From Candidatus Heteroclostridium caecigallinarum (GTDB lineage: Bacteria > Bacillota > Clostridia > Christensenellales > CAG-314), in the NCBI GenBank assembly GCA_904419725.1, contig CAJFSP010000005.1, forward strand, positions 1 through 64,000: a stretch of DNA of 64,000 nucleotides, given 5' to 3'. The notes below the pieces were generated by a model. The model was not told the DNA's origin. It saw nothing but the letters and a program-made list of their open reading frames with translations, and searched no databases. Positions 3,524 through 9,129 of the stretch are shown piece by piece. Position 1 is the stretch's first letter, and the number at the start of each line of letters is the position of its first letter. A program made the translations under genes and the position numbers.

Positions 3524-4561
3524 ATGGAAAAGAAATTGTTTCTGCATACGGCGGATTTGCACCTTGACTCCGCCCTTAAAAATCTCGGCGACGCCGCGAA
3601 AGCGGCTGTCCGCCGCCGCGAACTTACCGATACTTTCGCCAGAATGGCGGAATACGCCTCGTCAAACGGCGTCAGCGGCGTAATCGTCGCGGGAGATATG
3701 TTCGACGAAGGTAAAACGTCCGCCGCGGCGAAACGGCAGGCGGCGGAAATCATGAAAAAGAACGGCGGCGTCACGTTTTTTCTGCTCAGCGGCAACCACG
3801 ACAAAAGAGCGTTTGACGACGATTTTACGGCGGCGCTGCCCGCCAACGCGATGGCGCTGGCTGACGGCGAAACAGTTGATTTCGGCTCGTACACCGTGAC
3901 GGGCGTGTATGGCGGCGCGGCTGTGGCGCCGCTGGATAAAGACAAGTTCAATATAGTCGTCGCGCACGGCCAGGTTGACGGCGACATAAAAATCAGGGAT
4001 TACGCCGGCAAAAACATCAACTATCTGGCGCTGGGGCACTTGCACGCCTACGCCAAAGGCAAAATAGACGGCAGGGGCGTGTGGGTGTACAGCGGCTGTC
4101 CGGAAGGCAGGGGCTTTGACGAAACGGGGGAAAAAGGCTTTGTGCTGTTTGACACTTTCGGCGGTGAAAAGTTTGTGCCTTTCTGCAAACGGCGGGCGCG
4201 CGAGGTCAGCGTAGACATAACGGGGCTGGACAACTACATTTCGCAGGTTGACGCCGCGCGCAGGGCGGTGGAGCATATGCCCGACGGCGACATGTTCAAA
4301 ATCGTTTTGCGGGGCGAACTTGACGAAGGCGTCGCCGCCGACGTCGCCGCCGTGCGCGAAGGGCTGGGCGGACGGTTTTTCGTCAGGGTGACGGACGAAA
4401 CGACGATTCGCCTGGACGAAAAACGCCTGCTCGCCGAAAAGAGCCTCAAAGGGGAGTTTTTCCGCGCCGTGAAAGCCGCCGCGCTGCCGCCGGAAGAAAA
4501 AAGAGTCATTCTCAAAATGGGTTTCGCCGCTTTGGACGGCACGGAGATTTGCGATGACTGA
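3524..4561 (+). CDS. SbcD/YhaO-like metallophosphoesterase (DNA exonuclease subunit)
   Basis: 345 residues. It carries the calcineurin-like phosphoesterase motifs of Mre11/SbcD nucleases: DLH near residue 11, GDMFDEG near 57, GNHDK near 90, VAHGQ near 146 and GHLHAY near 171. These coordinate two metal ions for DNA phosphodiester cleavage. It is shorter than classical SbcD and matches the Bacillus YhaO type. Its partner ATPase (YhaN-like) starts 8 nt before its stop codon, so the two are translationally coupled and probably form a complex acting on DNA ends or recombination intermediates. Confidence 0.85.
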   Translation: MEKKLFLHTADLHLDSALKNLGDAAKAAVRRRELTDTFARMAEYASSNGVSGVIVAGDMFDEGKTSAAAKRQAAEIMKKNGGVTFFLLSGNHDKRAFDDDFTAALPANAMALADGETVDFGSYTVTGVYGGAAVAPLDKDKFNIVVAHGQVDGDIKIRDYAGKNINYLALGHLHAYAKGKIDGRGVWVYSGCPEGRGFDETGEKGFVLFDTFGGEKFVPFCKRRAREVSVDITGLDNYISQVDAARRAVEHMPDGDMFKIVLRGELDEGVAADVAAVREGLGGRFFVRVTDETTIRLDEKRLLAEKSLKGEFFRAVKAAALPPEEKRVILKMGFAALDGTEICDD

Positions 4562-7268
4562 GATAAAAAGGATACGCATAGCCGCTTTCGGCAAACTGAA
4601 AAATTTCGATATGTCGTTTGAAAGCGGGTTTAATGCAATAAAAGAAGAAAACGGTTTCGGCAAAACGACGGTGGCGGCGTTTATCAAGGCGATGTTTTTC
4701 GGGCTGGAAGGCGGCGCTAAACGGGCGGTGGACGCCAACGCCCGCAAAAAATACACGCCGTGGCTTGCCGACGGCAAGTTCGGCGGCAGTCTCGAACTGA
4801 TTCACGACGGAAAGACATACATAATAACCAGGTTTTTCGGCAAAACGGCGGCGGGCGACATTTTCGAACTGACCGACGGGGCGGGCATTCCGTGCCGTGA
4901 TTACGGCGAGGATATAGGCGAAAAACTGCTGGACGTTTCCGCCGACGGTTTCGAACGCTGCCTGTATATTCCGCAAAGCGGCATTGAAGTCACCGGTGAG
5001 GAAAGCATAAAGGGCAAACTGCGCCGCCTTGTGGAAAACACCGAGCAGGGCGGCGACTACGACGCCGCCGTGGCACGGCTGAACGATTATAAAAACCGCT
5101 TAATCAGTCCCGGGCGCACCAGAAACCTGAGCGTCAAAACAAAGGCGGAGCAGGAACTTTCCTACGCCCGAGGGGAAATGACGCGCGCGCTGGAAGCGGG
5201 GCGGCAGGCGGAAGAAATCCGTGAGAGAATACGCGGCAATAACCAAGAAAAACTGCGGCTGGAAGAAAATCTCGCCCGTCTGAAAGAGAAACAGCGGCAA
5301 AACGACGAGCTGTCGGCGGAAGAGCGTGTCAGGCTTGCCGAAAAGGAAAAACTCGGCCGCCGTGTTGAGGAACTCAGGGCGCGGTGCGCCGATTTCGAGG
5401 CGCGCGGCGTAAACGTGGATGACGGATACATATGCGGACTGAGGGAAAAAATGGAAAGTCTGCGTGAAGCCGGCCGGCGCGACTCCGCCGCGGCGGACGC
5501 TGAAAAGAGGCTGTCCGGTCTGCTCGAAGAAAAACGCTCTCTCGAAGAAAGACATGCCGACGTCTGCGACGAATACGTCAACGATTTGGTTGAAAAAAAC
5601 AAAGAAGCGGTTGACGCCAAAACCAAAGCAGAAGTGCTCAAAGCCGAGTTTGATGTGCGTAGAAAATACGGCGAGGGGCATAATGAAGCACATCGAAGCG
5701 CTTTTATGCTGATGGCTCTTTTGCTTCCTCTTTTGCTTCTCGTGGGGCTTTTTCTGTTTTGGAACCAAACAACGCTCGCCGTTAAAATAGGCGTCTTTAT
5801 ACTTGCGGCCGCAAGTATTGTCGGGTTGATTTTCTATCATAAGTATCAGAAAAATAAAAAAGAATATTGGCTGAAAAAGCAAAATGATTCGGACGAACTT
5901 TTCAAAAAAGCAGCAGTCCTCCATAGTCAGATTGCCGAAAGTTTCGCGCGGAGCGGCATAACCGACGGCAATTTTTCCGTGGCTCTTGCCGAACTGCAAA
6001 AAATGCGCGCGCGTTACCGTGACATTTTAAGCGAGTGCGAGGCATCGCGCGCCGCCGCGGCGGAACGCGGGTGCGCCGGGCGTTATGAACGGGAACTGCG
6101 CGGCGTTTTCGACGCCCACGGCATAGACGAAGCTGATTTTGACAAAGCGCTCCTGGCGCTAGAAATAGCAAGGGCAAACTACCGGTCGGCGAAAAAAGAA
6201 CTCGAAGAGTGCGCCGCCAAACTCGCCGCCGCTTCGGAGAGCAGGCGGGCGGACGATTTTTCCGGCGGCATAGCCGATATTGAAGCCCGCGTCGCCGAAA
6301 TAACCCGTGCCGACGGCAGACTGCACGAGCGACTGAACGTTCTTGAAAGGGAAGCGGACGGCGTCAAAGACGCCGAAGTTACCCTTGCCGCGCTCGGCGA
6401 AAAAATATCGCGCGCCGTGCGAGGGGCGGAACTCGCCGATAAAACGGCGGAACTTTTGACTCTGGCGAAAGACAACCTTGCCAACGCTTTCATGCCGGGC
6501 ATAAAGGAAAACTTTTTGAAATATATGTCCGTGGTTACCGACGATAAATACAACGACGCCGCCGTGTCCGACGAATTTGACATCAGGCTTGTGGAAGAAG
6601 GCGGCGGACACGACTTCGGATATTTCAGCCGCGGCACGAAAGACGTGGCGATGTTTTGTCTGCGGCTGGCGCTTATCGACGTGATGTACGGCGACGACCT
6701 GCCGTTTCTGCTGCTGGACGACCCGTTTGTCAACGCCGACGAAGGCAATTTTTCGAGAGCCATGGCCGTTATTAAAGAGAGAGCCGCAAAAAGTCAGGTT
6801 ATTTATTTTACCTGCTGTTCACGAGAGGTGTTAAACATGAAGTATAAAAAGTGTCCTGTCTGCGATTTGAATTATATTTCTGATGAAGATGAACTGTGCT
6901 CGGTATGTGCGGGGAAATCGTCTTCTCAGTCGGTTAAACTTGGGCTATCTAACAAAACTTCATCATCAGTCTTTGACCCTTCCCTTACAGTAGTTGTGAC
7001 AGTGGAGAAGGGAGTTTGCCGGGGTAAAACAGGATATCTGGCTTATGACGAGCAGAAACGAAATATCGGTATAGTATACAGTCAAGATGACCCGAGAACA
7101 CGACGTTATGGAAAGGCAGAATTAAGTTTTTATGAAGAATATGAAAATGAGTTTGGGGCATGGCGTATTATCAAGCGAAACGGAGAGTATCTTGCTTATG
7201 AAACGTTGCAGTCACTTTTGGATAGTCGTGGAAGGGTTACGATTACTACCGACGCGCGGCACAGATGA
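4554..7268 (+). CDS. YhaN/SbcC-like ATPase, C-terminus replaced by an inserted zinc-ribbon reading frame
   Basis: 904 residues as read. N-terminus: SMC/Rad50-type Walker A (NGFGKTT, residues 33-39). Long coiled coils follow, interrupted at ~381-430 by two hydrophobic segments, as in membrane-bound YhaN. At the C-terminal ATPase half come FSRGTKD (signature-like, ~690) and Walker B/D-loop LLLDDPFVNAD (~718). Up to about residue 754 this is the expected protein. There a 517-bp insertion, bounded by the 26-bp direct repeat at 6789-6814 and 7306-7331, continues in frame into a zinc-ribbon protein. The uninterrupted gene would have ended just after the second repeat copy (CRA then TAA at 7339-7341). 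Partner of the YhaO-like nuclease. It is unclear whether the fusion is active; the ATPase core is intact. Confidence 0.8.
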   Translation: MTEIKRIRIAAFGKLKNFDMSFESGFNAIKEENGFGKTTVAAFIKAMFFGLEGGAKRAVDANARKKYTPWLADGKFGGSLELIHDGKTYIITRFFGKTAAGDIFELTDGAGIPCRDYGEDIGEKLLDVSADGFERCLYIPQSGIEVTGEESIKGKLRRLVENTEQGGDYDAAVARLNDYKNRLISPGRTRNLSVKTKAEQELSYARGEMTRALEAGRQAEEIRERIRGNNQEKLRLEENLARLKEKQRQNDELSAEERVRLAEKEKLGRRVEELRARCADFEARGVNVDDGYICGLREKMESLREAGRRDSAAADAEKRLSGLLEEKRSLEERHADVCDEYVNDLVEKNKEAVDAKTKAEVLKAEFDVRRKYGEGHNEAHRSAFMLMALLLPLLLLVGLFLFWNQTTLAVKIGVFILAAASIVGLIFYHKYQKNKKEYWLKKQNDSDELFKKAAVLHSQIAESFARSGITDGNFSVALAELQKMRARYRDILSECEASRAAAAERGCAGRYERELRGVFDAHGIDEADFDKALLALEIARANYRSAKKELEECAAKLAAASESRRADDFSGGIADIEARVAEITRADGRLHERLNVLEREADGVKDAEVTLAALGEKISRAVRGAELADKTAELLTLAKDNLANAFMPGIKENFLKYMSVVTDDKYNDAAVSDEFDIRLVEEGGGHDFGYFSRGTKDVAMFCLRLALIDVMYGDDLPFLLLDDPFVNADEGNFSRAMAVIKERAAKSQVIYFTCCSREVLNMKYKKCPVCDLNYISDEDELCSVCAGKSSSQSVKLGLSNKTSSSVFDPSLTVVVTVEKGVCRGKTGYLAYDEQKRNIGIVYSQDDPRTRRYGKAELSFYEEYENEFGAWRIIKRNGEYLAYETLQSLLDSRGRVTITTDARHR
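6789..6814 (+). repeat. 26-bp direct repeat, left copy
   Basis: Identical over 26 bases to 7306-7331 (begins AAAAGTCAGG, ends TTTTACCTG). The flanking bases differ on both sides. It lies in the codons for KSQVIYFTC at the end of the yhaN-like gene. Confidence 0.95.
6837..7268 (+). CDS. Inserted zinc-ribbon protein, family unknown (also readable as a fusion)
   Basis: 143 residues from the ATG at 6837, which has GAGAGGTG at 6823-6830. The N-terminus is a four-cysteine zinc ribbon (C6, C9, C21, C24, with KCPVCDLNYI then LCSVC). After a serine-rich linker comes a ~95-residue domain with GKTGYLAYDEQKRNIGIVYS and DDPRTRRYGKAELSFYEEYE, which I do not recognise. The same frame is open from the yhaN-like gene, so it may be made alone, as a fusion, or both. 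Base use (GAT, GAA, TTT, AGA-rich) differs from its neighbours and resembles the restriction island at 51.9-54.1 kb, suggesting transfer. Confidence 0.6.
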   Translation: MKYKKCPVCDLNYISDEDELCSVCAGKSSSQSVKLGLSNKTSSSVFDPSLTVVVTVEKGVCRGKTGYLAYDEQKRNIGIVYSQDDPRTRRYGKAELSFYEEYENEFGAWRIIKRNGEYLAYETLQSLLDSRGRVTITTDARHR

Positions 7269-7305
7269 TATAAAAAGACGAAGTGCATTGAATATTGAAC
7301 AAAAG

Positions 7306-7331
7306 AAAAGTCAGGTTATTTATTTTACCTG
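7306..7331 (+). repeat. 26-bp direct repeat, right copy
   Basis: Second copy of the 6789-6814 repeat. It is followed by GTCGGGCATAA, the presumed original end of the yhaN-like gene. The copy also holds the likely -35 element (TTTACC, 7324-7329) of the downstream ABC exporter promoter. Confidence 0.95.
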
Positions 7332-7359
7332 TCGGGCATAAACCGTTATAATATAAAAC
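7324..7359 (+). promoter_or_regulatory. Promoter of the ABC exporter, predicted leaderless
   Basis: TTTACC at 7324-7329, 17-nt spacer, TATAAT at 7347-7352, and 7 nt to the ATG at 7360. No Shine-Dalgarno site. The -35 lies inside the right direct repeat. Confidence 0.6.
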
Positions 7360-9129
7360 ATGGGAGAGAAGAAAAAAGAAAAAAAGAGCGGGGTTATGGC
7401 GTCAATCAAAAGATTCGTGCCGTATTTCAAGCCGTATAAAAAGATATTTTTCTGGGATTTGTTCTGTGTGTTCGTCGCCACGGTAATCGAACTGGTTTTT
7501 CCGAAATTGGTGGAAGTCATCACGGGCGACGCCACGGCAAGCGGCGGCATAAATCTGCGCCTTGTGCTTATCGTCTGCGCCGCGCTGATTATTTTGCGCG
7601 CGGTGGAAGTGGTTTGCCGTTTCTTTATGGTCAAATGGGGACATATGTCCGGAGCGTATGTCGAAACCGACCTCAGGGAAAACTTGTTCCGCCATTTGCA
7701 GGAGTTGCCGCACAGTTTTTACGACAACACGAAAATAGGCACGCTGATGTCGAGAATTTCCACCGACCTGTTTGAAATCACGGAATTCGCCCATCACTGC
7801 CCGGAAGAGTTTTTCATCGCCTTTATAAAAATCGTGGGCATATTTGTCATCATGATGTTTTCCAGCGTGCCCGTCACGCTGTGCCTGTTTGCCGTGATGC
7901 CCTTCATGATTTGGTTTGCCGTGGTGTACAACCGCAAAATGCGCCGCACTTTCAAAATCAACAGGGTGCAGATGGGCGAACTCAACGCCACGGTGGAAGA
8001 CAGCCTCGCCGGAGTGAGAGTCGTTAAATCTTTCGCCAACGAAGACGTCGAGCAGGAAAAGTTCGAAAAAGGCAACGAACGGTTTCTGGAAATCAAACGT
8101 GAAAACTATCAGTACATGGCGACGTACAACTGCGGTCTAAGAGTCATGGACGCCGTGATGTACATTCTCATTCTGCTGCTGGGCGCGCTGTTCAGGCTGC
8201 CCGTTCAGGTATTTGTGACTTATATCCTTTACGCCAACATTCTGCTGGCGTCGATAAAAGCCATTGCCGACTATACCGAGCAGTTTCAAAAGGGCATCAC
8301 CGCTTTCGAGCGTTACAGCGAAATTATGGATATCCCCGTTGGGCTTGACGACAAGCCCGGCGCCGTGGAACTCAAAGACGTCAAGGGCGATGTGGAGTTC
8401 AGACACGTCAGTTTCCGCTATACCGAAGACGGCCCGGACGTGCTCAAAGACATAAACGTCAGCGTCAAAAGGGGCGAAGTGCTGGCGATAGTCGGCCCGT
8501 CTGGCGGCGGAAAGACAACTTTCGCCAGCCTGCTGCCCAGGTTTTACGACGTAACCGAAGGCAGCATAACAGTTGACGGTCTTGACATAAAAGACGTGAC
8601 GCTCAAATCGCTCAGGCGGAATATAGGCGTGGTGCAGCAGGACGTGTATCTGTTTTGGGGCACGGTTGCCGACAATATACGTTACGGCAAACTCGACGCA
8701 ACGAGAGAGGAAGTCATCGCCGCCGCCAAAATGGCCGGCGCCGACGAGTTTATAGAAAAAATGCCGGACGGCTATGACAGTTACGTCGGCGAACGGGGCG
8801 TGAAACTGTCGGGCGGGCAGAAACAGCGCATATCCATAGCGAGAGTGTTTCTCAAAAATCCGCCCATTCTTATTCTGGACGAGGCGACCAGCGCCCTTGA
8901 CAACGAAAGCGAAGTGCTTGTGCAGAAGTCGCTGGAATCGCTGAGCAAGGGCAGGACGACAATCGTCATAGCCCACAGGCTGTCCACGATACGCGGCGCC
9001 ACCAAAATAATGGTGCTGACTGCCGACGGCGTGGAGGAAGAAGGCACCCACGAGCAACTTATGCGCAGCGACGGCCTTTACAAAAAACTGTACGAACTGT
9101 CGGGCAGCGTGGGCACGCTGCGCTGGTGA
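7360..9129 (+). CDS. ABC exporter, fused permease-ATPase
   Basis: 589 residues. Residues ~25-320 are a six-helix exporter-type transmembrane domain. The nucleotide-binding domain has Walker A GPSGGGKTT (~378), the VQQDVYLFWGT Q-loop region, signature LSGGQKQR (~482), Walker B ILILDEATSALD (~503) and an AHRLST H-loop (~537). It would work as a homodimer or half-transporter in the cytoplasmic membrane; the substrate cannot be deduced. The N-terminus is lysine-rich. An internal ATG at 7396 is possible, but 7360 fits the promoter spacing. Confidence 0.9.
   Translation: MGEKKKEKKSGVMASIKRFVPYFKPYKKIFFWDLFCVFVATVIELVFPKLVEVITGDATASGGINLRLVLIVCAALIILRAVEVVCRFFMVKWGHMSGAYVETDLRENLFRHLQELPHSFYDNTKIGTLMSRISTDLFEITEFAHHCPEEFFIAFIKIVGIFVIMMFSSVPVTLCLFAVMPFMIWFAVVYNRKMRRTFKINRVQMGELNATVEDSLAGVRVVKSFANEDVEQEKFEKGNERFLEIKRENYQYMATYNCGLRVMDAVMYILILLLGALFRLPVQVFVTYILYANILLASIKAIADYTEQFQKGITAFERYSEIMDIPVGLDDKPGAVELKDVKGDVEFRHVSFRYTEDGPDVLKDINVSVKRGEVLAIVGPSGGGKTTFASLLPRFYDVTEGSITVDGLDIKDVTLKSLRRNIGVVQQDVYLFWGTVADNIRYGKLDATREEVIAAAKMAGADEFIEKMPDGYDSYVGERGVKLSGGQKQRISIARVFLKNPPILILDEATSALDNESEVLVQKSLESLSKGRTTIVIAHRLSTIRGATKIMVLTADGVEEEGTHEQLMRSDGLYKKLYELSGSVGTLRW

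Follow-up and report, generated by a model that had tools for sequence, protein, structure and literature searches.

How did a small, AT-rich piece of DNA carrying a zinc-ribbon gene come to lie between two copies of a 26-bp sequence at the end of a yhaN-like gene? The locus is found in the window analyzed here, a 64,000-nucleotide stretch of a Candidatus Heteroclostridium caecigallinarum contig (CAJFSP010000005.1), for which a first-pass annotation had proposed either a tiny mobile or non-autonomous element or a targeted gene-insertion mechanism that brings a reading frame into fusion with its host gene. Genomic islands are usually detected via their integrases, and a solitary piece of a few hundred bases that lacks an integrase goes unnoticed in such searches. 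We consider it somewhat more probable than otherwise that the segment is such a piece: an integrase-less mini genomic island, similar to the decayed elements called CIMEs, which was placed at the gene 3' end by site-specific recombination.

A repeat-flanked segment at the 3' end of yhaN

The direct repeat AAAAGTCAGGTTATTTATTTTACCTG occurs in two copies with 100% identity and a period of 517 bp (Table 1). When the region 6300-7800 was shuffled with dinucleotide composition retained (n = 300), the longest exact direct repeat was 8-14 bp, compared to 26 bp in the real sequence, and a search of the 1.28-Mb genome found the 26-mer at these two places only. Although the segment had been described as a 517-bp cassette, this figure is the repeat period, and the insert measures 491 bp once one repeat copy is subtracted. 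Average GC content between the copies was 41%, whereas yhaN and the next gene showed 54% and 52%, respectively, and the third-position GC of the zinc-ribbon ORF was 0.36, a value exceeded by 98.5% of ORFs. This ORF starts with an ATG behind a ribosome site of its own, GAGAGG. The repeat, the AT-rich interior and the separately initiated gene had all been noted in the first-pass annotation, and all three were confirmed.

Within the segment (6815-7305), the zinc-ribbon gene was the sole ORF of note; neither a transposase, nor an integrase, nor any other recombination, mobilization or conjugation gene was found there, and there was no family match. Terminal inverted repeats were absent from the segment ends, the segment was single-copy in the genome, and the region 6000-8000 gave no Rfam match. 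A small segment of different composition between direct repeats could be read as the product of an IS- or MITE-like transposition in which the target duplication was unusually long, but with no terminal inverted repeats, no transposase, no second genome copy and a 26-bp duplication that exceeds the 2-14 bp given for insertion sequences, we regard this as very improbable. The contrast with insertion sequences that had been drawn at the outset was right.

Table 1. Features of the yhaN locus (positions in the window)
Feature	Position	Strand	Basis or remark
Metallophosphoesterase gene, YhaO/SbcD-like, yhaN partner	3524..4561	+	PF00149, E=1e-10
yhaN-like gene (SMC/AAA_23 ATPase), insertion target, native stop displaced	4554..6814	+	PF13476 and PF02463 above cut-off; C-terminal motif alignment
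Direct repeat copy 1, proposed attL	6789..6814	+	In the last codons of yhaN; 14 bp invariant in G001 and G003
Inserted segment, 491 bp, 41% GC	6815..7305	+	Missing at the same place in G001 and G003; composition
CTGTTCACGAGAGGTG	6815..6830	+	Includes ribosome site GAGAGG
Cargo gene, 143-aa zinc-ribbon protein with order-specific C-terminal domain	6837..7268	+	ORF; homologues
Direct repeat copy 2, proposed attR	7306..7331	+	Exact repeat
Native yhaN end, C-R-A-stop after copy 2	7332..7341	+	Aligned to yhaN ends of G001 and G003
ABC transporter gene, directly after yhaN in empty-site relatives	7360..9129	+	PF00664, PF00005

Empty sites in relatives

The C-termini of YhaN were compared across 24 relatives. 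In all of them YhaN stopped a few residues past a Q[IV]IY[FL]TC-type motif, and none of the 24 proteins carried a zinc ribbon. In two genomes of the same genus, G001 and G003, yhaN ends with QIIYFTCHEA-stop and is directly followed by the ABC transporter gene, whose start shared 77 and 84 of 115 residues with that of the window, respectively. The window flanks, joined at one repeat copy, gave an unbroken alignment to both genomes, indicating that copy 2 with the following C-R-A-stop is the native yhaN end; ATTTATTTTACCTG inside the repeat was invariant among the window, G001 and G003. Since the same site is empty in these two genomes, the insertion belongs to the window's lineage, and on these alignments it is a real, lineage-specific event at the yhaN 3' end. 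The proposal of a small non-autonomous element was supported to this extent, that a small non-autonomous piece was inserted in one lineage. Neither of the two findings named in the first-pass annotation as contradicting it was made: YhaN of relatives lacks the zinc ribbon, and cassettes homologous to this one do occur between repeats elsewhere (see below). Downstream of yhaN, no convincing duplicated yhaN end was observed in the 24 relatives, and no parent element or integrase was found at the yhaN site in relatives.

The genome is incomplete, consists of 19 contigs and is probably metagenome-assembled, and an assembly artefact at the 26-bp repeat could be suspected; nevertheless, we find it scarcely credible, as the insertion is in the interior of a 100-kb contig, two errors would have to coincide on one 26-mer to produce a false join, and analogous structures occur in independent genomes.

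The displaced stop codon and the open frame

In native yhaN, the end of the repeat falls within the last three codons. The stop codon lies beyond the repeat, and the element therefore fails to restore yhaN. As described earlier, the yhaN frame is open through copy 1, continuing to 7268 (904 codons), and C-R-A-stop follows copy 2. YhaN, as the sequence reads, has lost its native last residues and stop, its frame continuing into the cargo. An open frame across the junction requires frame agreement and about 7 stop-free codons, for which we estimate a chance of roughly 1 in 4. Because the cargo gene possesses a ribosome site and a start of its own, and has homologues that stand alone, the 904-codon read-through frame is probably incidental. 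The idea of a mechanism that places a frame in fusion with its host was not borne out, given this chance and the homologues, most of which are separate genes that begin at a start of their own; in addition, the rubrerythrin cassettes described below stand behind an intact host gene, which speaks against a purposeful fusion. As to the suggested duplication of the next gene's -35 region, TTTACC (7324-7329) does lie in copy 2, 17 bp before TATAAT (7347), but the same motifs are 15 bp apart in G001 and G003, and the duplication of a -35 region is unproven.

Immediately after copy 1 (6815-6834), TCACGAGAGGTGTTAA reads in the +1 frame as a YhaN-like tail, H-E-R-C-stop. TCACGAR within 14 nt was found at 0.0009 of random genome sites in a post hoc count, and this tail is possibly a frameshifted, element-borne yhaN end, which we regard as suggestive only. 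Two other candidates were rejected: a longer cassette-borne yhaN tail, for which homology upstream of copy 2 was not significant, and the in-frame tail CSREVLN as a yhaN-like end, which was not significant either.

A displaced stop codon is also what an untargeted insertion would give. In break-repair capture, the yhaN end would have undergone a staggered double-strand break or a template switch, and 26-nt fill-in with joining of a foreign fragment would give a one-off 26-bp target duplication without any mobile element. The event is solitary in this genome, with no second case, and end sequences are not shared, both in line with such a capture. On the other hand, the insertion coincides exactly with the end of a gene, and in other genomes, too, members of the cargo family lie between direct repeats, so that we rate capture as unlikely, if by no means negligible.

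The cargo protein family

The 143-aa cargo protein consists of a CPxC...CxxC ribbon and a C-terminal domain. The ribbon motif by itself is widespread in the order, where it opens proteins that otherwise differ, whereas the C-terminal domain is found almost only in this order and in a patchy manner. It was present in 3 of the 41 genomes from the family of the window, in 8 of 74 from a second family and in 2 of 391 in a class-wide sample, the window's own genome being counted. The closest full-length relative found was in G811. In two genomes, the C-terminal domain follows a PD-(D/E)XK nuclease domain, which differs between them: in G027 (L127 14016-15584) the nuclease domain matched PF14281 above cut-off, and in G071 (L162 7597-8568) it gave a weak HSDR_N_2 match. 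By eye, the neighbours of the two fusions are also defence-like and included a DUF262-type protein-like gene in G027 and a cytosine methyltransferase-like gene in G071. These fusions and their neighbours suggest a nucleic-acid-related accessory role of the cargo. We regard the cargo as a small zinc-ribbon protein of variable genomic regions and, judging from its domain partners, probably a nucleic-acid-related accessory or defence-island protein. No significant match of the cargo was obtained in Pfam, NCBIfam, PHROGs, PADLOC or PDB, and a single-sequence structure model was unusable (mean pLDDT 35). A phage or plasmid origin was rejected, since no cargo homologue was detected in IMG/VR, INPHARED or PLSDB, nor by a peptide-pattern scan of genome contigs.

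Three cargo homologues were located 73-323 bp past a tRNA 3' end (L126 3715-4284 in G004, L228 7106-7817 in G822 and L226 7257-8077 in G811). No duplicated tRNA end was found at these loci, and insertion at the tRNA end was not retained for them.

Repeat-flanked relatives and the rubrerythrin end

Homologous cassettes between long direct repeats were looked for at 13 other cargo homologue loci and were present in two, G148 and G131, both from bacteria of the window's order; at the other 11 no long flanking repeat was seen, several loci being near contig ends. In G131, the cargo homologue is located between 138-bp repeats (90.6%) at the 3' end of a large serine recombinase gene. In G148 (L156 9435-12900), the cargo homologue and a membrane-protein-like gene are directly behind rubrerythrin, and the array continues with a partial rubrerythrin 3' end (110 bp, 82%), a lipoprotein-like gene and a second partial end (70 bp, 84%). 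In G351, a sibling of G148, the same rubrerythrin end holds an unrelated 178-aa gene between 69-bp tails that are 98.6% identical (L193 600-1500). No duplicated rubrerythrin tail was found within the stretches examined at 19 other loci of the G148/G351 family. In G191, which belongs to another family, a truncated tyrosine-integrase N-terminus lies 179 bp after rubrerythrin (L242 2030-3575; PF14659, E=5e-4, slightly below the curated cut-off), and the lipoprotein gene that follows it is homologous to the lipoprotein gene of the G148 array (tblastn E=4.5e-24).

Because of the stacked partial ends, the one-gene cassettes, the integrase fragment and the recurring lipoprotein cargo, the rubrerythrin 3' end looks like a site at which integrase-borne islands attach, and the small cassettes found at it resemble such islands minus the integrase. 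A further locus of this set was observed in G202 (L241 5795-5902). Partial 114-bp rubrerythrin tails were also seen on contigs without a full rubrerythrin gene, at the same kind of position within one genus (L238 1824-1937 in G202, L239 400-513 in G191).

These loci could alternatively represent a distinct class of sub-kilobase (under about 1 kb) single-gene cassettes of this order, which would be moved as such, rather than arising by decay, by resident recombinases acting in trans on the 3' ends of conserved protein genes. The same rubrerythrin end holds cassettes of one or two genes whose cargo differs between G148 and G351, and one cargo family is present at yhaN, rubrerythrin and recombinase gene ends; both are consistent with this. 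However, neither an end sequence nor a repeat length is common to them, and the remnant of an integrase next to rubrerythrin suggests ordinary islands in decay, for which reason we think a separate class decidedly improbable. If it existed, it would produce occasional C-terminal fusions and spread small nucleic-acid-related accessory proteins.

Recombinases and other repeats in the same genome

The window genome (G000) contains three tyrosine-recombinase genes (C1:45592, C11:1902 and C19:2413) and a further one that is split, and these could have served as the trans-acting catalyst. Similar cassettes were searched for in the same genome by means of exact and inexact direct repeats at ORF ends. 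No second clear cassette was found; the repeats recovered belonged to a CRISPR array, to intergenic tracts rich in repeats and to an RHS gene. The CRISPR-like array (G000:C3:154508-156199, L087) has the 36-bp repeat GTTTGAGTATGGTGTAATTCTAAACGGTAGTTAGAC. At G000:C17:5716-6325 (L111), a direct repeat of 86 bp exact (103 bp at 94%), 507 bp apart, lies in an RHS/YD-repeat-like gene whose start seems rearranged. On C11, a split tyrosine integrase lies beside the 3' end of a large ftsH-like gene, in a region of about 5 kb (G000:C11:3729-8783, L093) that is bounded on either side by imperfect terminator-like repeats (43 bp, 91%) and is probably an island in decay.

Proposed origin of the segment

The insertion with its repeats, the empty site, the lack of a recombinase gene and the repeat-flanked cargo relatives elsewhere are established, and we propose the following origin. 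A circular element with one 26-bp copy would have recombined with the same sequence at the yhaN 3' end (attB), catalyzed by a recombinase, presumably of the tyrosine type, that the segment does not encode. This would leave one 26-bp copy on each side (attL and attR) and push the last codons and stop of yhaN downstream; the segment may have arrived small or shrunk in place. A repeat that is beyond chance and of att length, the 3' end of a conserved gene, the empty sites in two genomes of the genus, foreign AT-rich composition and patchy cargo argue for the island, as do the repeat-flanked loci of G148, G131 and G351, the integrase fragment of G191 and the tyrosine recombinases of the window genome. 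Against it, no integrase was connected with the yhaN site in any relative, the target loses its stop codon without being restored, 11 of the 13 other homologue loci have no long flanking repeat, and PF14659 in G191 is under its cut-off. Compared with the repeats of the window, those at rubrerythrin are longer and match each other less closely, and the cases may not share one mechanism; a new mechanism is not proven here. The yhaN case and the rubrerythrin arrays suggest that scans for duplicated gene ends would bring to light numerous small gains of genes in little-studied bacteria, and that part of these would alter the C-terminus of the target protein.

Comparison with known systems

Tyrosine-recombinase elements typically have direct repeats of 8-60 bp and use the 3' ends of housekeeping genes, so a 26-bp repeat at a gene 3' end is ordinary for tyrosine-integrase islands; such islands usually restore the end of the target gene (PMC5704250). 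IMEs with tyrosine recombinases are reported at the 3' ends of guaA, rpsI, rplL, trmE and yicC, and yhaN was not found among the tabulated sites that were consulted (PMC5704250). The window segment is like IMEs in the type of insertion site and in repeat length, but it has no integrase and no relaxase and does not restore the target end. With integron gene cassettes it shares a single gene per mobile unit, whereas it is flanked by long host-gene copies and forms no array. In the ssrA islands of Dehalococcoides, cargo units lie in tandem between copies of a gene 3' end, with an integration module in 16 of 31 (PMC3146451). Their accretion of units bounded by gene 3' ends is similar to the repeat-flanked cassettes, although they differ from the window in having 20-bp repeats of the tmRNA gene ssrA and in being far larger.

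CIMEs, or cis-mobilizable elements, are decayed elements that keep only their att repeats and occur in tandem stacks (PMC7563491, PMC5704250). Classical CIMEs in the literature span 1.2-13 kb and microCIMEs, which have no genes, 130-220 bp, and single CIMEs were missed by the method of that study, as stated there (PMC7563491). The window segment differs from them in being a solitary 491-bp piece with one gene, which displaces the target stop codon. The likeness is one of structure, no ICE or IME parent having been found at yhaN in relatives: att-length repeats on both sides, the 3' end of a conserved gene and no recombination or transfer genes are common to both, and the tandem arrays of CIMEs resemble the rubrerythrin array of G148.
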